Program-made: the position numbers and the translations under genes
Notes under the pieces: model-generated
What the model was told of the DNA's origin: nothing
Seen by the model: the letters and a program-made list of their open reading frames with translations, nothing else
Databases searched by the model: none
From: Gammaproteobacteria bacterium
GTDB lineage: Bacteria > Pseudomonadota > Gammaproteobacteria > Pseudomonadales > Azotimanducaceae
Length of the DNA: 64,000 nt
Reading direction: 5' to 3'
Assembly (NCBI GenBank): GCA_009843635.1
Contig: VYDB01000078.1
Span: 63,656-127,655, forward strand
Part shown: positions 48,237 through 56,992 of the stretch, piece after piece
How positions within the stretch are numbered: position 1 is the first letter of the stretch
Layout: the number at the start of each line of letters is the position of its first letter

Positions 48237-48323
48237 TGGTGCCGAGGAGAGGACTTGAACCTCCACGGGGTTACCCCCACTAGCACCTGAAGCTAGCGTG
48301 TCTACCAATTTCACCACCTCGGC
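48237..48323 (-). tRNA. tRNA-Leu (anticodon CAG)
   Basis: 87 bases on the minus strand, including an encoded CCA (48237-48239). The acceptor stem is GCCGAGG/CCTCGGC, the D-arm reads TGAAATTGGTAGACAC as in bacterial tRNA-Leu, and the T-loop is GGTTCAAGTCC. The anticodon stem CTAGC/GCTAG encloses the loop TTCAGGT, anticodon CAG, which reads CUG. A long variable arm (GTGGGGGTAACCCCGT region) confirms a class II tRNA-Leu. Confidence 0.95.
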
Positions 48324-48386
48324 GGGAAGCGGTCGCTTCGGAAAGCGGGCGCGCAATGTAATGGCACGGGAAGGGCCTTGTCAACG

Positions 48387-48431
48387 CGCCGCCTTCGGCG
48401 GCGTGATCGAGTTTCGCTTGCGCGAAACTCG
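48387..48431. repeat. Second twin-hairpin (REP-like) element
   Basis: CGCCGCC-TTC-GGCGGCG (48387-48403) is followed by CGAGTTTCGC-TTGC-GCGAAACTCG (48408-48431). The second stem shares GAGTTTCGC and a 4-base loop with the element at 32681. It lies between the tRNA and the phosphoesterase gene. Confidence 0.75.
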
Positions 48432-48471
48432 GATAGTCGCGGGCGGTTGCCAATTGATCTATGGTAACCCC

Positions 48472-49311
48472 ATGCGATTGTGGGCGATTTCCGACCTCCA
48501 CCTTTCCCATCCGAGGAACCGGGAAGCCTTGGACGACCTCCCCGCCCACCCCAACGATTGGCTGATCCTGGCCGGCGACATCAGCGACGGCCCCAAGCGG
48601 CTCGAAGGCTGCTTCCGCCGCCTAGCCGGCAAATTCCGGCAGATCGTCTGGATACCGGGCAACCACGAGCTCTGGTCGCTGCCCCGAGACCCCGACGGGC
48701 TGCGCGGCGTCGCCCTCTACCAACGCCTCGTCGAAGTGGCGCGCGGGCACGGCGTGCTGACGCCGGAAGACCCTTATCCAATCGTGGAGCACCAAGCCGG
48801 CCCAGTGCTGATCGCACCCCTGTTCCTGCTTTACGACTACAGCTTCCGGCCCGACCAAGTGCCGTTCGATCAAGTCGTGCAATGGGCCACGGAGGCCAAT
48901 TCAGCCTCCGCCGATGAGTCGCTGCTGCACCCAGACCCCTTCGCCGACCGCCCGGCCTGGTGCGCCGCGCGCTGCCAAGAGACGGCGGCACGGCTCGCCG
49001 CTTATCCCGAGGATCTGCCCAAGGTGCTCATCAATCACTACCCGCTCGAGGAGCGGCTGGCGGTGCTGCCCCGAGTGCCGCGCTTCACGCCTTGGTGCGG
49101 CACCCGGCTGACGCACGGCTGGCACCGGCGCTTCAACGCCTGTGCCGTGGTTTACGGGCATCTGCACATCCGCGGCACCCGCTGGCTCGACGGCGTGCCC
49201 TTCCAGGAAGTGTCGCTCGGCTACCCTGACCAATGGAACCAGGGCCTCGGCATCGGCGCCTACCTGCGCGAAGTGACCGTCGCCGCGTCGCGATCCGCCC
49301 CTGTAATCTGA
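48472..49311 (+). CDS. PptH-like metallophosphoesterase (putative phosphopantetheine hydrolase)
   Basis: 279 residues from ATG 48472, directly before the first catalytic strand. All five metallophosphoesterase motifs are present: SDLHLSH, LAGDISD, PGNHELW, INHYP and YGHLHI. The protein resembles mycobacterial PptH (Rv2795c) in detail from memory: NDWLILAGDI, WIPGNHELWSLPRDP, PLFLLYDYSFRP and the EVSLGYP end. PptH removes 4'-phosphopantetheine from carrier proteins, opposing the transferase PptT, with which it is linked. Here a phosphopantetheinyl transferase lies 1.3 kb downstream, beyond the selenoprotein gene. The link to that function is inferred. Confidence 0.8.
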   Translation: MRLWAISDLHLSHPRNREALDDLPAHPNDWLILAGDISDGPKRLEGCFRRLAGKFRQIVWIPGNHELWSLPRDPDGLRGVALYQRLVEVARGHGVLTPEDPYPIVEHQAGPVLIAPLFLLYDYSFRPDQVPFDQVVQWATEANSASADESLLHPDPFADRPAWCAARCQETAARLAAYPEDLPKVLINHYPLEERLAVLPRVPRFTPWCGTRLTHGWHRRFNACAVVYGHLHIRGTRWLDGVPFQEVSLGYPDQWNQGLGIGAYLREVTVAASRSAPVI

Positions 49312-49452: not shown

Positions 49453-50595
49453 ATGGCTGAAACCATGATGGCGTATCCGGAACTGCGTCACCCATACGAA
49501 GTGACGCCGATTCATCCTCCGGGCAGCACCACGGTGCTGCACCAAGGACGGGCAGTCACCCTGGCTGAAACCGGCGATGGCGATGGCCTGCTCATCAGGC
49601 CGGAAGACCTGCCCCGGGTGAACGGTTTCGAGTTGAAGCCGGAAGGCGCCTGCCGTGAAGGCCTGTGCATACCGATGAACGATGACTTGCTGATCAGCAG
49701 GGACGACGGGCAGTGGTTTGACCTAGCCGCCTTCGCCGATCTGACTGGGCAGCCGTACGTGGCCGACCGGCCCGCTGGGGTGTGGAGCTTTGCCGAAGTC
49801 CCGGCGACGCGCGAGCCCATGATGGCCGATGCCATGGCGCCCGACTTCGCAGTGACGGATCGGCAGGGCAACCGTGTCGCAACGGCCGACCTCAAGGGAA
49901 AAAAGGCGCTGATCGTGACTTGGTCATCCTGGTGAGGCTGCCAGCTTGACGTGCCCGTGTGGCAGCGTGTTTACGAAGAGATCAACGATCCGGACTTCGT
50001 CCTCATTTGCGCCGCGCAAGATACCGGCGGCGAAGCGGTGGCCGGGCCGATTTTCGACGCGGCGAACCCCACCTATGTTCAGGTCGTGGACGAAGATCAC
50101 GTCATTAGCAGCGCGTTCAATTTCGTGAACGTGCCTTCCGCAGCCTGGATCGATGAGACCGGCAGGATCGTGCGCATTGATGAAGGCACCTACGCGGCAA
50201 TCCACGAGATCGGCGACGGTGAAGAGAAGTTCGTTTTCGGCAACGATGTTTACGCGCAGGCCGTGAAGGACTGGGTGGCAAATGGGGCGCGCAGCAGATT
50301 CGCCCAATCCACCGCCACGGTCTCGGGAAACATCCGCAAGCACAGCTTCGATCAACGCAAGGCCGATGCGGCATTTCGGCTGGCCAACCTGTTCCGGGCG
50401 CACGGCTGGCAAGCCAAGGCGGAGCAGTACTGGGAGATGGCCCGATCGCTGAATCCCGACAGCATCAACTTCATTCGGCAGAATCTCACGCTGACGGAAG
50501 AGGGTTCGGCCGGCGAGACCTTCCGCAAGGTGGTGATGGACTACGCCAACCAGGGCAAGGACTACTACCGGCCCCTGGACCTGGAAGAGGCCTGA
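49453..50595 (+). CDS. Redoxin-domain selenoprotein (in-frame UGA at the active site)
   Basis: Read through TGA 49933-49935 the gene is a single frame of 380 residues with Sec161. Before it the redoxin start is normal (MAPDFAVTDRQGN; KGKKALIVTWSSW); then U, GC and QLDVPVWQRVYEEIND continue the thioredoxin fold, followed by the typical AAWIDETGRIVRIDEG strand. The position of U is that of the first Cys of a CxxC active site (WC in ordinary thioredoxins), giving a UGC motif. The N-terminal 100 residues carry a Cys pair (ACREGLC); the C-terminus is helical and TPR-like (DAAFRLANLFRAHGWQAKAEQYWEMA). ATG 49453 has AAGGAG seven bases upstream. It probably acts as a thiol/selenol peroxidase or reductase. 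Confidence 0.85.
49933..49966 (+). promoter_or_regulatory. Bacterial SECIS-like element
   Basis: The UGA (49933-49935) is followed by a stem GCTGCCA (49937-49943) / TGGCAGC (49960-49966). An inner stem ACG/CGT (49949-49951/49956-49958) closes a TGCC loop (49952-49955) with G in second place. The UGA-to-apical-loop distance is 16 bases. These features fit the bacterial SECIS pattern bound by SelB. Confidence 0.75.
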
Positions 50596-50647: not shown

Positions 50648-51316
50648 GTGACCATCCTGCACGTGGACCTGTCGCCACACGCCAACCGCGAGGCGCGCGC
50701 CTTCGCCCTGCTCGATGCCCAGGAGACCCGGCGGGCGCGGCGATTCGTGGTCGAGCCGCCCCGGCGCCGCTTCGTCCTATGCCGGGCAGCGCTGCGGGTC
50801 AACCTCTGCCAACGGCTCGACTGCCGCAACGAACGGCTTTCATTCAGCGCTCTCAAACACGGCAAGCCGGTCGCCGAAGTGAATGGCGAGCGCGTCTCCC
50901 TAGGCTTCAACCTCAGCCACAGCGGCGGGCACGGGCTAATCGCCATTGCGGCCCATGAGCAGCTCGGCATCGATGTCGAGGAACGCAAGCCCGGCCGCAA
51001 CTTCGAAGGCATTGGCAGACGCGTCTATGGCCCCGCCGAGCGCCGATTGCTGGCGCAGGCCGATGGGCAGCGCAAGGCGGCGTTCTTCTATCGGTTGTGG
51101 ACTTTGAAGGAAGCGCTGATCAAGGGCTTGGGCACCGGCTTCACGCTCAACCCAGCCACCTTCGAGGTGCCCGAGCCCATGCTGCGCGGCGAACGCTCAG
51201 GCCGGTTTCAATTCCCGCACCAGCCCGAGGACAACTGGCAACTGCTGGACCTAGGGGAACCCCGCTTCGCCGCCGCACTTGCCTACCGGCTGGACCGCCG
51301 AACGCCAAACGAGTAA
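50648..51316 (+). CDS. 4'-phosphopantetheinyl transferase (Sfp/Gsp superfamily)
   Basis: 222 residues from GTG 50648. The transferase signatures are present: LGFNLSHSGGHGLIAIAA, LGIDVEERK (metal Asp/Glu) and FFYRLWTLKEALIKGLGTGF. It moves 4'-phosphopantetheine from CoA to a Ser of carrier proteins (AcpP, PKS, NRPS). The open frame before GTG contains a WWRLWQ-like segment typical of Sfp N-termini, so a non-standard upstream start is possible. It lies 52 bases after the selenoprotein gene, in the same direction. Confidence 0.9.
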   Translation: MTILHVDLSPHANREARAFALLDAQETRRARRFVVEPPRRRFVLCRAALRVNLCQRLDCRNERLSFSALKHGKPVAEVNGERVSLGFNLSHSGGHGLIAIAAHEQLGIDVEERKPGRNFEGIGRRVYGPAERRLLAQADGQRKAAFFYRLWTLKEALIKGLGTGFTLNPATFEVPEPMLRGERSGRFQFPHQPEDNWQLLDLGEPRFAAALAYRLDRRTPNE

Positions 51317-51346: not shown

Positions 51347-52498
51347 GTGATCAGGCAGTATCTGGGCGCCCTGCTCGTTCTCGCTGTCGGCGTCGGCGTG
51401 GCCGCGTTGATCGTGGCCACCGGCCCAACGACCGTCAAGCAACCGAGCCGGCCAGACATTCCGGTCGTGCAGGCAACGCCCGTGCAGCCCCGGTGGGTGC
51501 AGATGACGGTTCGCGCGCACGGCGAAGTGATCCCCAAAACCGAAAGCAACTTGGTTGCGGAGGTGGCGGGGCGGGTCGTCAGCGTGGCGCCGGCGATGGT
51601 CTCCGGCGGCTTTTTTGCCAAGGACGACGTTCTGGTTGAAATCGAAAGCGTCGACTACCGGGTCGCTCTCGAACAAGCGCGGGCGCGCCTGGCATCGAGG
51701 CGCAGTGACCTCGATACCGCCGAAAAGGACTTCGACCGACTCGAGGAATTGGCCAAGACCCAATTCGTCAGCGAGTCGGCGCACGATGCTGCGTCCAATC
51801 AGCTTGCCGTGGCGAGCGCGGCATTGCGCTCGGCCCAGGCCAGCTTGGAGCGGGCCGAACGCGACCTGGCCCGCACTCAGATCACGGCGCCCTATGACGG
51901 CCGGGTGCGCACGGAACGGCTGGACGTGGGCCAATTCGTGAACCGTGGCGAAACAATCGCTGCCCTCTACTCCATCGACTACGCGGAAGTGCGGCTGCCG
52001 ATCCGCGATGTCGATCTTGCGTTCCTGCCGCTTTCCCTGGCGAACCGGCAAAACGATGAGCCGCCGCCCAAGGCAAGATTGCGCGCGGAGTTCGCCGGAG
52101 CGGAACACTTCTGGGTTGCCGACGTGGTGCGCACGGAAGGCGAACTGGATCCGCTTACCCGCATGGTCAACGTGGTTGCGCAGGTGCCGAAGCCCTACGA
52201 ACCCGCCGGCGCCTCGCCGCCCTTGACCGTCGGCCTGTTCGTTGAAGCGGAGATCTTTGGCAATTGGGTCGAGGATGTCTTCATCGTGCCGCGCACGGCG
52301 CTGCAGGAAGGCGGCAAGGTCTATGTCGTGGCGGATGACGGCCGCCTCTCGTTTCGCGACGTGGCGGTGTTGCGCAGGACCGGCGAGACCCTTTACCTGC
52401 AAGGCGAGTTGGAATCCAGCGAAGTGGTCTGCCTTTCGCCGCTCGCCAACGCGACCGAAGGGCAGCGCGTTCGCACCATCCTGGCCAGTGAGGCCTAG
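51347..52498 (+). CDS. RND efflux periplasmic adaptor (membrane-fusion protein) 1
   Basis: 383 residues. An N-terminal anchor helix (YLGALLVLAVGVGVAALIVA) is followed by the MFP layout: lipoyl halves (VAEVAGRVVSVAPAMVSGGF; ITAPYDGRVRTERLDVGQFV), an alpha-helical hairpin (ARASRRSDLDTAEKDFD region) and beta-barrel. GTG 51347 follows CGGAGAGG. It would link an RND pump to an outer-membrane channel. It is first of five genes: two adaptors and three permeases. Confidence 0.9.
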   Translation: MIRQYLGALLVLAVGVGVAALIVATGPTTVKQPSRPDIPVVQATPVQPRWVQMTVRAHGEVIPKTESNLVAEVAGRVVSVAPAMVSGGFFAKDDVLVEIESVDYRVALEQARARLASRRSDLDTAEKDFDRLEELAKTQFVSESAHDAASNQLAVASAALRSAQASLERAERDLARTQITAPYDGRVRTERLDVGQFVNRGETIAALYSIDYAEVRLPIRDVDLAFLPLSLANRQNDEPPPKARLRAEFAGAEHFWVADVVRTEGELDPLTRMVNVVAQVPKPYEPAGASPPLTVGLFVEAEIFGNWVEDVFIVPRTALQEGGKVYVVADDGRLSFRDVAVLRRTGETLYLQGELESSEVVCLSPLANATEGQRVRTILASEA

Positions 52499-52618
52499 CC
52501 GGATTTCTTGTTGCGCAAAAGTGCGCTAGCATTCCCGCATTGATGCAGCAACGATCGGTTCGGGCGAGTGGGGAGGCCCGCGCTTGGACCCTGGACGCGA
52601 CTGAGGGGGAGCTTGAAC

Positions 52619-53785
52619 ATGGCGGAGTCGGGTGACGACAATCAGGATTCCGGGCAGCAGCAGCGCTGGCGCGGCATTCTCCAACTGGCGATCATCGTTG
52701 CGGTGATCCTGGCGGCGATTTTCTTCGCCCGCGCACCTAGCCGTGAATTCCTCGAACTGGATCCCGAACTGGCCGAGGTCCGCGTCACCCCCACCGCCGC
52801 GGTAATCGAGCCGACAGCGACCCCCGCATCCCACAAGGTGGTGTTGACCGGCACGGTGACGACCTTGGGCAATGTGTCAGTCCGGTCCGAGACTTCAGGG
52901 CAAGTGGTGTGGGTGTCCGAGAACTTCCGCAGCGGCGCCGAGTTCAAGGCTGACGAAACTTTGGCGCGGGTCGATGCGCGGGACATGGAGCTGATGCTCG
53001 CAAACGCCAAGCTCGGGCTGGTTGCCGCCCAGGAAAACCTCAAGCAGAGGCGCGACGAGGCAGCGCGAGCGCCGCAATTCCTGCAGCGGTTCCCCGGCGG
53101 GCATTTGAACCCGTGGCTCGCCACCGAAGGGACCATCGAAGAAGCCGAGGCACTGGTCGAAATCGCCCGCAACAACGTCAAGCTCGCCGAAATCGAACTG
53201 GACGAAACGAGGATCCGGATGCCGTTCGACGGCTATGTGCGAAAGACGGTGCTGTCCCGAGGGCAGGTGGTCGAACGGCTGGTCTCCGATCTCGGGACTG
53301 TCTATGCGAAGCATCAATTGCGGGTGCGCGCCCGCATTTCGGCATTCGACCTGAATTCCCTGCAGCCGGTCATCGGCCGCAAGGCCGTCGTGGTCGCCAA
53401 CGGCCAGGCCATTGACACGGTGGTCGAGCGCGTCTCGAAGGAAGTCGATATCGAGACGCGATTGGCCAGCCTGTACCTCGAGGTGCTCGACCAAGAGAAC
53501 GCGGCCATGCTGCCGCCTCCCGGCACCTTTGCGGACGTGACCGTGCAAGGGCCGATGCAGGACGACGTGTTCGTGCTGCCCGAATCGGCGTTGCAGATCA
53601 GCGGCAGCGTCTGGCTGGTCGATGACGGCCAGCTCACCGCGTACACCCCCGCTTCGGTGGGGTACAGCGACGGCGGTTGGCTGGTCCGTGCGTTCGATAC
53701 CCGTGATGGCATCGTGGTGGGCCGCGTACCGGGAGCGCGCGAAGGCCTCGGCGTGAACGCCGTGCCCGCCGGAGCGGCGCAGTAG
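52619..53785 (+). CDS. RND efflux periplasmic adaptor 2
   Basis: 388 residues from ATG 52619, behind GAGGGGGAG. One N-terminal membrane helix (GILQLAIIVAVILAAIFFA) leads to a HlyD-like adaptor: VRSETSGQVVWVSENFRSGAEF, a helical hairpin (AQENLKQRRDEAARAPQF) and RIRMPFDGYVRKTVLSRGQVVE. It is quite different from adaptor 1, so the two may pair with different permeases or form a mixed ring. RND permease 1 starts 43 bases downstream. Confidence 0.9.
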   Translation: MAESGDDNQDSGQQQRWRGILQLAIIVAVILAAIFFARAPSREFLELDPELAEVRVTPTAAVIEPTATPASHKVVLTGTVTTLGNVSVRSETSGQVVWVSENFRSGAEFKADETLARVDARDMELMLANAKLGLVAAQENLKQRRDEAARAPQFLQRFPGGHLNPWLATEGTIEEAEALVEIARNNVKLAEIELDETRIRMPFDGYVRKTVLSRGQVVERLVSDLGTVYAKHQLRVRARISAFDLNSLQPVIGRKAVVVANGQAIDTVVERVSKEVDIETRLASLYLEVLDQENAAMLPPPGTFADVTVQGPMQDDVFVLPESALQISGSVWLVDDGQLTAYTPASVGYSDGGWLVRAFDTRDGIVVGRVPGAREGLGVNAVPAGAAQ

Positions 53786-53827
53786 GTACCCTGGCAACCA
53801 CTGTAACGCGCAGGCAGGGAGTCCGCC

Positions 53828-56800
53828 ATGGCTGAATCCGCAAGCATCGGTGATCCGGACGCCGGCGCGCGCGTGGGCGTCATCGCCTACTTCGCCCGCA
53901 ATCCCGTCGCCGCCAACGTACTCCTGTTCCTGCTCTTCGTTGGCGGGCTGATCGCCTCCGACCTGATCACCCTCGAGACATTCCCCGAATACGACCCCCG
54001 CGTCATCCGCGTCGAAGTGCCCTATCCGGCCGCAACCCCGGCGGAGGTCGAGGAAGACATCGTCAAGCGCATCGAGGAAAGCCTGGTGGGCACCATTGGC
54101 ATCGCCCGCACCATCTCCAGCTCCCGCGAGGAACGGGCCGTCGTCGATGTGGAGATGGAACCCTTCGCTGACGACATCGACACCCTCAATTTCGTGCGCA
54201 CGGCCATCGAGCGCATCGAGGACTTCCCGCCGCTCAACGCCGATGAGCCGGAAGTGACCAAGGTCGAGGTCAGCCGCAAGGTGCTGACGATCGCCTTGAG
54301 CTCCGGGGCGCTCGACCCCTTCGAGTTGCGTCACGCCGCGGAGTCGCTGCGGGACCGGCTGCTGCTGCTGCCCAGCATATCGATCATCGATCTGTTCGGG
54401 ACGAAGGACCAGGAGATTCAAGTCGAGCTCAGCGAAGAGACCCTACGCCAGTACGGCATCACCCTGGACCACGTGGTGAGCGCCATCCGGCGGACGTCGG
54501 TGAACGTCACCGGCGGCGAACTGCGCACCGGGTCAGGGGACATCATCATGAGCACCCTGGCCAAGCGCGATTACGCCGACCAATTCGACGACGTGGTGGT
54601 CCTTGCCCGGCCGGACGGTTCGCTGGTGCGCCTCGGCGACATCGCGGAACTGCGCGACAGCCTGCTCGAACACGACGCCGTAGCCACCGTCAACGGCGTC
54701 CCCACCATATTTCTCCAAGTCAAGGTCTCCGCCGACACCTCCCCCCAGGAAGCAAGCGCCCAGGTGCGCGACTACCTAGACGGCTTCGAGGCACCCGCAA
54801 CCGTCGGGGTGGCCATCTGGGAAGATGAGACTTGGGCGGTCGAGGACCGCATGTACTTGATCATCAAGAACGGGATCTTCGGCCTGATCCTGGTGTTCGC
54901 CACCCTCATGCTCCTGTTCGACCTGCGCGTAGCGACTTGGGTGGCGCTCGGCGTTCCCGTGGTGTTCGTGGCCTCGCTGATCGTCTTTCCTTTCTTTGGC
55001 CTCACCCTGAACGTCATGACGCTGTTCGCGTTCTTCATACTGATCGGCATCGTCGTGGACGACTCGATCGTGGTGGGCGAGAACATCGCGATGCGCTTGG
55101 ATCGAGGTGAAACCGGCGCCGAGGCCGCCATCGCCGGCACCCGGGAAGTCATTGCTCCCATTGCGGTCGGCGCCTTCACCACCATGGCGGCATTCGCGGC
55201 GCTGCTGCCGCTCGACGGGCTGATCGGCCAGATGTTTGCCGTGATCCCGATCGTGGTGGTGGTCGTGCTGCTGTTGTCCCTGTTCAAGGCGGCCTTCATT
55301 CTGCCTGGCCATCTCGCAAAACCTGGGCGCTGGAGCGCCTGGCCCCTGTCCGCAGCGCAGGAACGGTGTCACGCCGTCGCCCAGGCCATGATCGAGACCA
55401 GGATCGTTCCCCTGATCTCCTGGTCGGTGCGGCGCTTGCAATGGCCGCCGGTCATCGTCGCCGGCAGCGTTCTCGTTACCGCCTGCCTGCTGGTGTTCGG
55501 GGGCGTTCATTTCGACCCGAGCTTAAGGGTGGTGGACGAGAAAAACGTGCAGGTTGACCTAGTGCTGCCCCAGGACGCACGGCCCGAGGACCTGCAAGCC
55601 GTCACGGACCATGCGGTCGCGGCGGCGCAACGGGTGGACGCTGAGCTTGGCGGGCGGGTGATCGACGCGGTCGCGGTGGCCATCGGCCACCACTTCCCCG
55701 TGGAATCCTATCGCGGCGCGGATGCGCGTCAGTACCGCAGCAATCTGGCCTCCGTGCAACTGCGGCTCAATCCGCCCGAGGTGCGCGGCGTTACCATCGA
55801 AGAACTGCAGCACCGCTGGCGCCAGCGCCTGGCCCGCATGCCTGGCGTCGAGTCGGTGAGCTTCCCCACCCGGCAGACGCAGACATCGAATAGCCTGTCG
55901 TACGCATTGATGCATCCGGATCCACAGGTGCTTGCCGATGCCACCGAGGAGTTGCACGCGGCGCTCGCCCGCTTGGACGGCGTCAGCCAAGTCAACGACT
56001 CGATCGAGCAAGGCAAGCGCCGCTTCGATGTACGCCTCAACGCCGCCGGCGATACAGCCGGCCTGACCGCGGCATCGGTTGCCACCCAGTTGCGCAACAG
56101 CTTCTACGGCGCCGAGGCCCAGCGCATCCAGCGGGGCCGGGAAGAGGTTCTGGTGATGGTGAGGTACCCCCAGGATCGGCGCTCCAGCTACGCGGAGTTG
56201 CTCAACGAGCGCATCAACCTGCCGGCCAGCCGGGAGCAGGTTCCGTTGTACACGGTGGCCGAGATCACGGAAACCCGCAGCATCGCCAACCGGCTGCGCA
56301 TAGACGGGCGCAGCGCCGCGGTGGTTAGTGCCGACTACGATGCCGCGCGCTTGCTCTCCGGCGACTTGGCCGACGTGGTTGAGGAGCGGATTCTTCCAGA
56401 CCTCCAGAGCCGCTATCCGGAGATCCGAATTCGCAAGCACGGGGCAAACCGGGACATGGAACGCCTTACCGGCATCCTGACGCTTTCGGTGCCGATCGCA
56501 CTCTTGGTCATATATTGCCTGATCGCCTCCTTCCTGCGCAGTTTCGTGCAGCCGTTGCTGGCCCTAGCGGGCATTCCCATGGCATTCGTGGGCGCGGTGG
56601 CGGGGCACTTGGCGCTGGGTTACGAGTTCAGCATCACATCGATATTCGGCCTGCTCGCGGTTTCCGGCGTGGTCGTCAACGACACGATTCTACTGATGTA
56701 TCGCTACAACCACATGGTCCGAGAATCCGGCATGCCTGAGATTGCGGCAATTTCCGCGGCCACCCGGCAGCGTGCCCGGGCGATCCTGCTCACCAGCGTG

Positions 56801-56992
56801 ACCACCCTGCTCGGCCTGCTGCCGATTCTGTTCAGCGGCGACGAGGCCATTCGGTTCCTGATTCCGCTCGTGGTGAGCATCGCCTTCGGCTTGGTGTTCG
56901 CCGGCATCGGCCTGGTGTTCTTCCTGCCATCGGTCATCATGACGGTGGAACTGGCGAAAGGGCGGCTTGGCCGACGGCGGCTGGTGGGCTGA
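53828..56992 (+). CDS. RND efflux permease 1 (HAE-1/AcrB family)
   Basis: 1054 residues, full length with 12 membrane helices and two periplasmic porter domains. ATG 53828 has AGGGAG upstream. The TM4 proton-relay pair is in GIVVDDSIVVGEN (Asp411-Asp412). Typical elements include PAATPAEVEEDIVKRIEESL and the end GLVFAGIGLVFFLPSVI. It exports drugs, metabolites or lipids by proton exchange. Its stop is 35 bases before permease 2. Confidence 0.93.
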   Translation: MAESASIGDPDAGARVGVIAYFARNPVAANVLLFLLFVGGLIASDLITLETFPEYDPRVIRVEVPYPAATPAEVEEDIVKRIEESLVGTIGIARTISSSREERAVVDVEMEPFADDIDTLNFVRTAIERIEDFPPLNADEPEVTKVEVSRKVLTIALSSGALDPFELRHAAESLRDRLLLLPSISIIDLFGTKDQEIQVELSEETLRQYGITLDHVVSAIRRTSVNVTGGELRTGSGDIIMSTLAKRDYADQFDDVVVLARPDGSLVRLGDIAELRDSLLEHDAVATVNGVPTIFLQVKVSADTSPQEASAQVRDYLDGFEAPATVGVAIWEDETWAVEDRMYLIIKNGIFGLILVFATLMLLFDLRVATWVALGVPVVFVASLIVFPFFGLTLNVMTLFAFFILIGIVVDDSIVVGENIAMRLDRGETGAEAAIAGTREVIAPIAVGAFTTMAAFAALLPLDGLIGQMFAVIPIVVVVVLLLSLFKAAFILPGHLAKPGRWSAWPLSAAQERCHAVAQAMIETRIVPLISWSVRRLQWPPVIVAGSVLVTACLLVFGGVHFDPSLRVVDEKNVQVDLVLPQDARPEDLQAVTDHAVAAAQRVDAELGGRVIDAVAVAIGHHFPVESYRGADARQYRSNLASVQLRLNPPEVRGVTIEELQHRWRQRLARMPGVESVSFPTRQTQTSNSLSYALMHPDPQVLADATEELHAALARLDGVSQVNDSIEQGKRRFDVRLNAAGDTAGLTAASVATQLRNSFYGAEAQRIQRGREEVLVMVRYPQDRRSSYAELLNERINLPASREQVPLYTVAEITETRSIANRLRIDGRSAAVVSADYDAARLLSGDLADVVEERILPDLQSRYPEIRIRKHGANRDMERLTGILTLSVPIALLVIYCLIASFLRSFVQPLLALAGIPMAFVGAVAGHLALGYEFSITSIFGLLAVSGVVVNDTILLMYRYNHMVRESGMPEIAAISAATRQRARAILLTSVTTLLGLLPILFSGDEAIRFLIPLVVSIAFGLVFAGIGLVFFLPSVIMTVELAKGRLGRRRLVG

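Follow-up and report, generated by a model that had tools for sequence, protein, structure and literature searches.

ResA, TlpA and StoA proteins are exported or membrane-anchored and use a CxxC motif with cysteine. Selenoproteins with a UGC motif were reported in 2008 as 'Prx-like (UGC-containing)' proteins in the GOS selenoproteome (PMC2398784), and a 'UGC-containing TlpA disulfide reductase family protein' is listed in PMC13188914; the sections of these two papers used here contain no functional test of a UGC-type selenoprotein. The protein analyzed in this work is encoded in a stretch of 64,000 nucleotides (hereafter, the window) from a gammaproteobacterium of the Azotimanducaceae. Going by the descriptions in those sections, it shares with this class the UGC motif with selenocysteine (Sec), an AhpC-TSA/TlpA-like domain and occurrence in aquatic bacteria. 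The nearest family model is NCBIfam NF041054 (WAxxUGC_long, ResA-like WAxxUGC motif-containing protein). It was matched by all 27 proteins compared, and a Cys form belonging to a different family within the order reached a score of 546. The window protein scored 227.3 bits and other members of its clade (clade 1) 234 and 238 bits, below the curated cut-off of 300. Like the proteins of this family, with which it is homologous over most of its length, the window protein has a CX4C motif, U-G-C, a ResA-like domain and a UGA-coded Sec with Cys variants, and the hairpin is in the same position. It differs in its motif, WSSW-U-GC rather than WAxxUGC, and in forming part of a fully supported clade of its own that has the N-terminal extension MAxxMMAYPELRHPFE. 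With ResA, TlpA and StoA it shares the fold and the position of the nucleophile, whereas its UxC motif is one residue shorter in the alignment than their CxxC, a signal peptide is missing, and there are extra N- and C-terminal parts. Judged by sequence, the window protein represents a new clade within the already known UGC-type selenoproteins and not a separate kind.

The gene (49453..50595, plus strand) is predicted to encode a UGC-type ResA/TlpA-like thiol oxidoreductase of 380 amino acids. One frame extends from the ATG at 49453 to the TGA at 50593-50595, with the TGA at 49933-49935 (plus strand) as the sole internal stop; AGGAG is present shortly 5' of the start codon, which is kept among relatives. 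The preliminary description of the locus had joined two halves of one redoxin domain across the internal TGA, regarded both of its flanks as coding and placed U in the position of the first catalytic Cys, and these readings were borne out. Indeed, the Redoxin/AhpC-TSA matches in Pfam cross TGA 49933 (residues 127-244, E 5e-9). The dN/dS ratio against a relative with 84% identity was 0.108 5' of the UGA and 0.112 3' of it, showing that purifying selection acts on both flanks. Homologues were collected by searching the whole genomes of 98 relatives and by scanning GTDB contigs. At the codon aligned with position 161, TGA was found in 106 and TGC in 3 of the 109 loci in which this codon was readable, some genomes being counted via both searches. 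On this alignment, the conservation of the TGA far exceeds chance. Another 20 regions, picked from more distant matches and nearly all pre-marked with TGA, contained TGA in 19 cases and TGC in one. Genome-wide recoding of TGA was ruled out, since both the selenoprotein gene and the upstream phosphoesterase gene terminate with TGA. A standard gene caller stops at Trp160 and makes the rest a separate ORF; therefore, the enzyme probably goes unnoticed in marine and sponge-associated gammaproteobacteria.

A SECIS-like hairpin had been proposed to follow the UGA directly, with a stem of seven pairs and TGCC as the loop, 16 bases from the UGA. Such a stem (49937-49943/49960-49966, plus strand) exists in the window sequence and forms part of its best fold (-12.2 kcal/mol), but it is intact only there and in a relative with 95% identity. 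Among 52 distinct clade 1 sequences, the pair 49938/49965 was broken in 50 and the pair 49943/49960 in 39, no compensatory change was found at the pairs of this stem, and the folded stretch containing it was not stabler than shuffled sequences (z -0.07). As hardly any relative can form it and no compensating substitutions occur, the 7-bp stem was ruled out as the SECIS. The conserved element is instead a predicted hairpin at 49949-49968 (plus strand), composed of a 5' arm (49949-49955), the loop CGUGU (49956-49960) and a 3' arm (49961-49968) in which one purine, 49964 or 49965, is bulged. Its loop begins 20 nt past the UGA, and the TGCC is part of its 5' arm.

The core of this hairpin, four UGCC/GGCA pairs with a 5-nt loop, formed in every one of the 92 distinct UGA sequences, which come from three clades, but not in any of the four Cys homologues; throughout these 92 sequences, the second loop position is G and the fifth is U. 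Compensatory changes from CG to UA were detected in clade 1 (columns 18/35, 9 sequences), at two pairs in clade 2 and at two pairs in clade 3, where the loop is also CGUGU and the stem has six perfect base pairs. The clade 1 codons V167 GTG, P168 CCC and V169 GTG were invariant (60, 58 and 60 sequences, respectively), and codons 167-169 were the only ones with an entropy below 0.35 among 105 conserved codons with four-fold or higher degeneracy (mean: 1.65 bits). For comparison, we applied the bSECIS rules as given in the sections of PMC13188914 used here (limits for loop and spacing, a stem of at least 4 bp, an energy of -7.5 kcal/mol or lower). In agreement with the model in Fig. 2 of that paper, the hairpin has a loop of 5 nt whose second position is G, followed by U, a stem of at least 4 bp and a distance of 20 nt from the UGA. 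Its energy was -7.6 kcal/mol in a 45-nt context and -6.4 kcal/mol as an isolated 20-mer, against the required -7.5 kcal/mol, and the clade 1 median for the isolated hairpin (-6.8 kcal/mol) is borderline by the same rule. Within the window mRNA, the competing stem at 49937-49966 was computed to be stabler than the conserved hairpin (-12.2 versus -7.6 kcal/mol). Folding of a single sequence thus picks a different stem, and it is the comparison of about 90 relatives that locates the likely SECIS. Covariation, codon invariance and the loss in Cys homologues indicate that the hairpin 49949-49968 is likely the SECIS, and we are highly confident in predicting that the gene encodes a selenoprotein with this element.

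The genome possesses selA, selB, selC and selD. The tRNA-Sec scored 75 bits and has the anticodon TCA, SelA scored 470 bits, and selB, which adjoins selA and selC, was identified by its translation next to these genes and not by a profile search. SelD is fused to an FAD/NAD dehydrogenase-like part (Ndh-SelD, 742 aa; L041 307-2535, G000:C129) and is a Cys form (CGGCGAK); the Ndh-SelD fusion type is described from marine samples in the portion of PMC2398784 considered here. With an E value of at most 1e-20, the UGA form of the gene is carried by 35 of the 98 relative genomes. SelA is present in 33 of these, and the two remaining genomes, which are drafts, have a tRNA-Sec that exceeds the cut-off. 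In G087 and G089, the only genomes with Cys forms alone, SelA was absent and no tRNA-Sec exceeded the cut-off. The co-occurrence of the Sec form with the Sec machinery runs in the expected direction, with relatedness confounding the count.

In the phylogenetic tree, clade 1 comprises 59 rows with a support of 100/100, all of them Sec forms. No Cys form was present among the 80 tree rows of clades 1 and 2, and the switching between U and C requires at least three changes. The motif WSSWUGC of the window protein is replaced in other clades by WASWUGC or WAPYUGC, the latter being that of clade 3 (L124-L139, L143). Several genomes hold two or more of the clades together. The whole-genome search detected no selenoprotein gene in the same-genus genomes G001, G004, G006 and G007, and the gene is therefore dispensable. 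UGC selenoproteins of the clade 2 type were also observed in MAGs that carry the labels Hydrogenedentota and Acidobacteriota (Vicinamibacterales) (L103, L108, L109, L113), which suggests transfer or mis-binning. Two copies (L037 and G045:C22:17835-18950) have an extra in-frame TAG besides the Sec TGA and are possibly decaying paralogues.

The AlphaFold2 model of the protein had a pLDDT of 90.5 and a pTM of 0.90. A ResA/TlpA-like thioredoxin-fold domain at about residues 126-243 (49828..50181, plus strand) was recognized by Pfam, Foldseek, profile matches and phmmer: PF00578 scored 33 bits (cut-off: 26 bits), with a weak match to GSHPx, and Foldseek revealed resemblance to 3kcm, 4nmu and ResA. 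In the phmmer alignment, U161 coincides with the first Cys of CxxC, and C163 is one residue nearer than usual. The model places U161 at the N-terminus of a helix that starts at residue 162, and the predicted cis-Pro-type loop NVP (226-228) is invariant in the 27 homologues. We conclude that the modelled fold is the ResA/TlpA-like thioredoxin fold. The C-terminal residues 297-339 (50341..50469, plus strand) appear to form a helical TPR-like region, as indicated by weak Pfam TPR matches below the cut-off, by helices in the model and by TPR profile matches. PDB sequence-profile matches were confined to the thioredoxin and TPR parts and gave none for residues 1-115, and none of the best 50 Foldseek matches listed spans the whole protein.

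Four residues were invariant across the 27 aligned homologues, Cys forms included: C67 and C72 of the N-terminal CX4C motif (49651..49668, plus strand), U161 (or Cys) and its putative partner in U-x-C, C163 (49939..49941, plus strand). In the model, C67 and C72 sit on the neighbouring short strands 65-68 and 71-73. Judged by eye, the N-terminus of clade 1 proteins has no signal peptide and those of clade 2 are signal-peptide-like; therefore, their compartments probably differ, and the sequence suggests that the clade 1 protein is probably cytosolic. The layout of CX4C and UxC, with one cytosolic-looking and one exported-looking clade, makes this a concrete, testable enzyme.

Going by the sequence comparison, SelB and Sec-tRNA-Sec would decode UGA 49933 under the direction of the hairpin 49949-49968. 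The fold and the motif suggest that the selenolate of U161 would attack a disulfide or another oxidized substrate, and that Cys163, two residues on, would resolve U161 with formation of an intramolecular selenenylsulfide. In the least certain step, Cys67 and Cys72 may pass electrons to or from the U161-C163 centre as an internal relay. We consider it fairly probable that the protein is a thiol:disulfide oxidoreductase. The relay, proposed from the invariance of C67 and C72, has in our view somewhat less than an even chance; these residues could alternatively bind a metal or form a disulfide with a structural role. More tentatively still, clade 1 may represent a cytosolic, Sec-only oxidoreductase with its own function, having a self-contained C67/C72 - U161/C163 relay, never replaced by Cys among the sampled relatives of the clade, and working in a compartment apart from that of the exported sister clade.

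Several other explanations were weighed against a selenium-dependent thiol:disulfide oxidoreductase. The TGA at 49933 might stem from faulty assembly or from a mutation in a pseudogene, the true codon being TGC (Cys), as the source assembly is a draft of 152 contigs and distant relatives do have Cys forms. However, TGA occupies the same codon in 106 of 109 loci from many independent assemblies, including the strain-titled (non-MAG) records HTCC2143 (L099) and Litorirhabdus (L046), the sequence 3' of it is under purifying selection, and the conserved hairpin occurs only alongside TGA. The independent genomes with TGA and the purifying selection refute this explanation, whose probability we regard as negligible. 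For a selenoprotein, U161 could also reduce peroxides, with C163 as the resolving residue. The Pfam matches to AhpC-TSA/Redoxin and, weakly, to GSHPx agree with such a peroxiredoxin- or GPx-like peroxidase, as does the name 'Prx-like (UGC-containing)' that the class bears in the relevant section of PMC2398784, but the top matches in sequence and structure are ResA, TlpA and StoA rather than peroxiredoxins, and U161 occupies the place of the first CxxC cysteine. A peroxidase is therefore unlikely. Slightly better, although still improbable, are the prospects of a metal-binding or structural role of C67/C72, which would make the protein a simple U-x-C redoxin or a reductive handler of metals or metalloids. 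An invariant CX4C on neighbouring predicted strands would suit this role, and a TlpA-type protein complexed with a copper chaperone exists (4txo); yet the 27 homologues have no further invariant Cys or evident metal-ligand motif nearby, and no neighbouring gene of any kind is widely conserved.

The preliminary description had suggested a redox step tied to carrier-protein chemistry, in which the selenoprotein would work with its neighbours, a metallophosphoesterase (48298-49311) and a phosphopantetheinyl transferase (PPTase, 50648-51316), on 4'-phosphopantetheine or carrier-protein thiols. This pair of neighbours recalls the mycobacterial PptH-PptT pair. Phosphopantetheine is a thiol, and the order phosphoesterase - selenoprotein - PPTase, all on the plus strand, is found in the window and in the relative with 95% identity. 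However, neither neighbour was detected at the other GTDB loci tested, some of which are on short contigs, and no other neighbour family recurred beyond 11 of the 79 loci. Moreover, G007, a genome of the same genus, has the phosphoesterase next to the PPTase, their matches lying about 60 bp apart, and lacks the selenoprotein gene; therefore, the latter seems to have been inserted between, or lost from between, an existing pair, and its appearance in the window is that of an insertion into an older pair. With the neighbours unconserved and the pair existing without the selenoprotein, we reject the phosphopantetheine link as very unlikely and conclude from these gene comparisons that the two neighbours do not belong to the selenoprotein's system. 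In G004, all that matches the phosphoesterase frame beside the PPTase is a short segment from its start (pair loci L145 and L146). In the window, a tRNA-Leu (CAG; 48237-48323, minus strand) sits just upstream and overlaps the longest phosphoesterase ORF, and the start of this gene is therefore probably further in, near 48470. On the 3' side of the PPTase lies an RND efflux set (51347-56992) consisting of two HlyD-type proteins and an AcrB-type pump.
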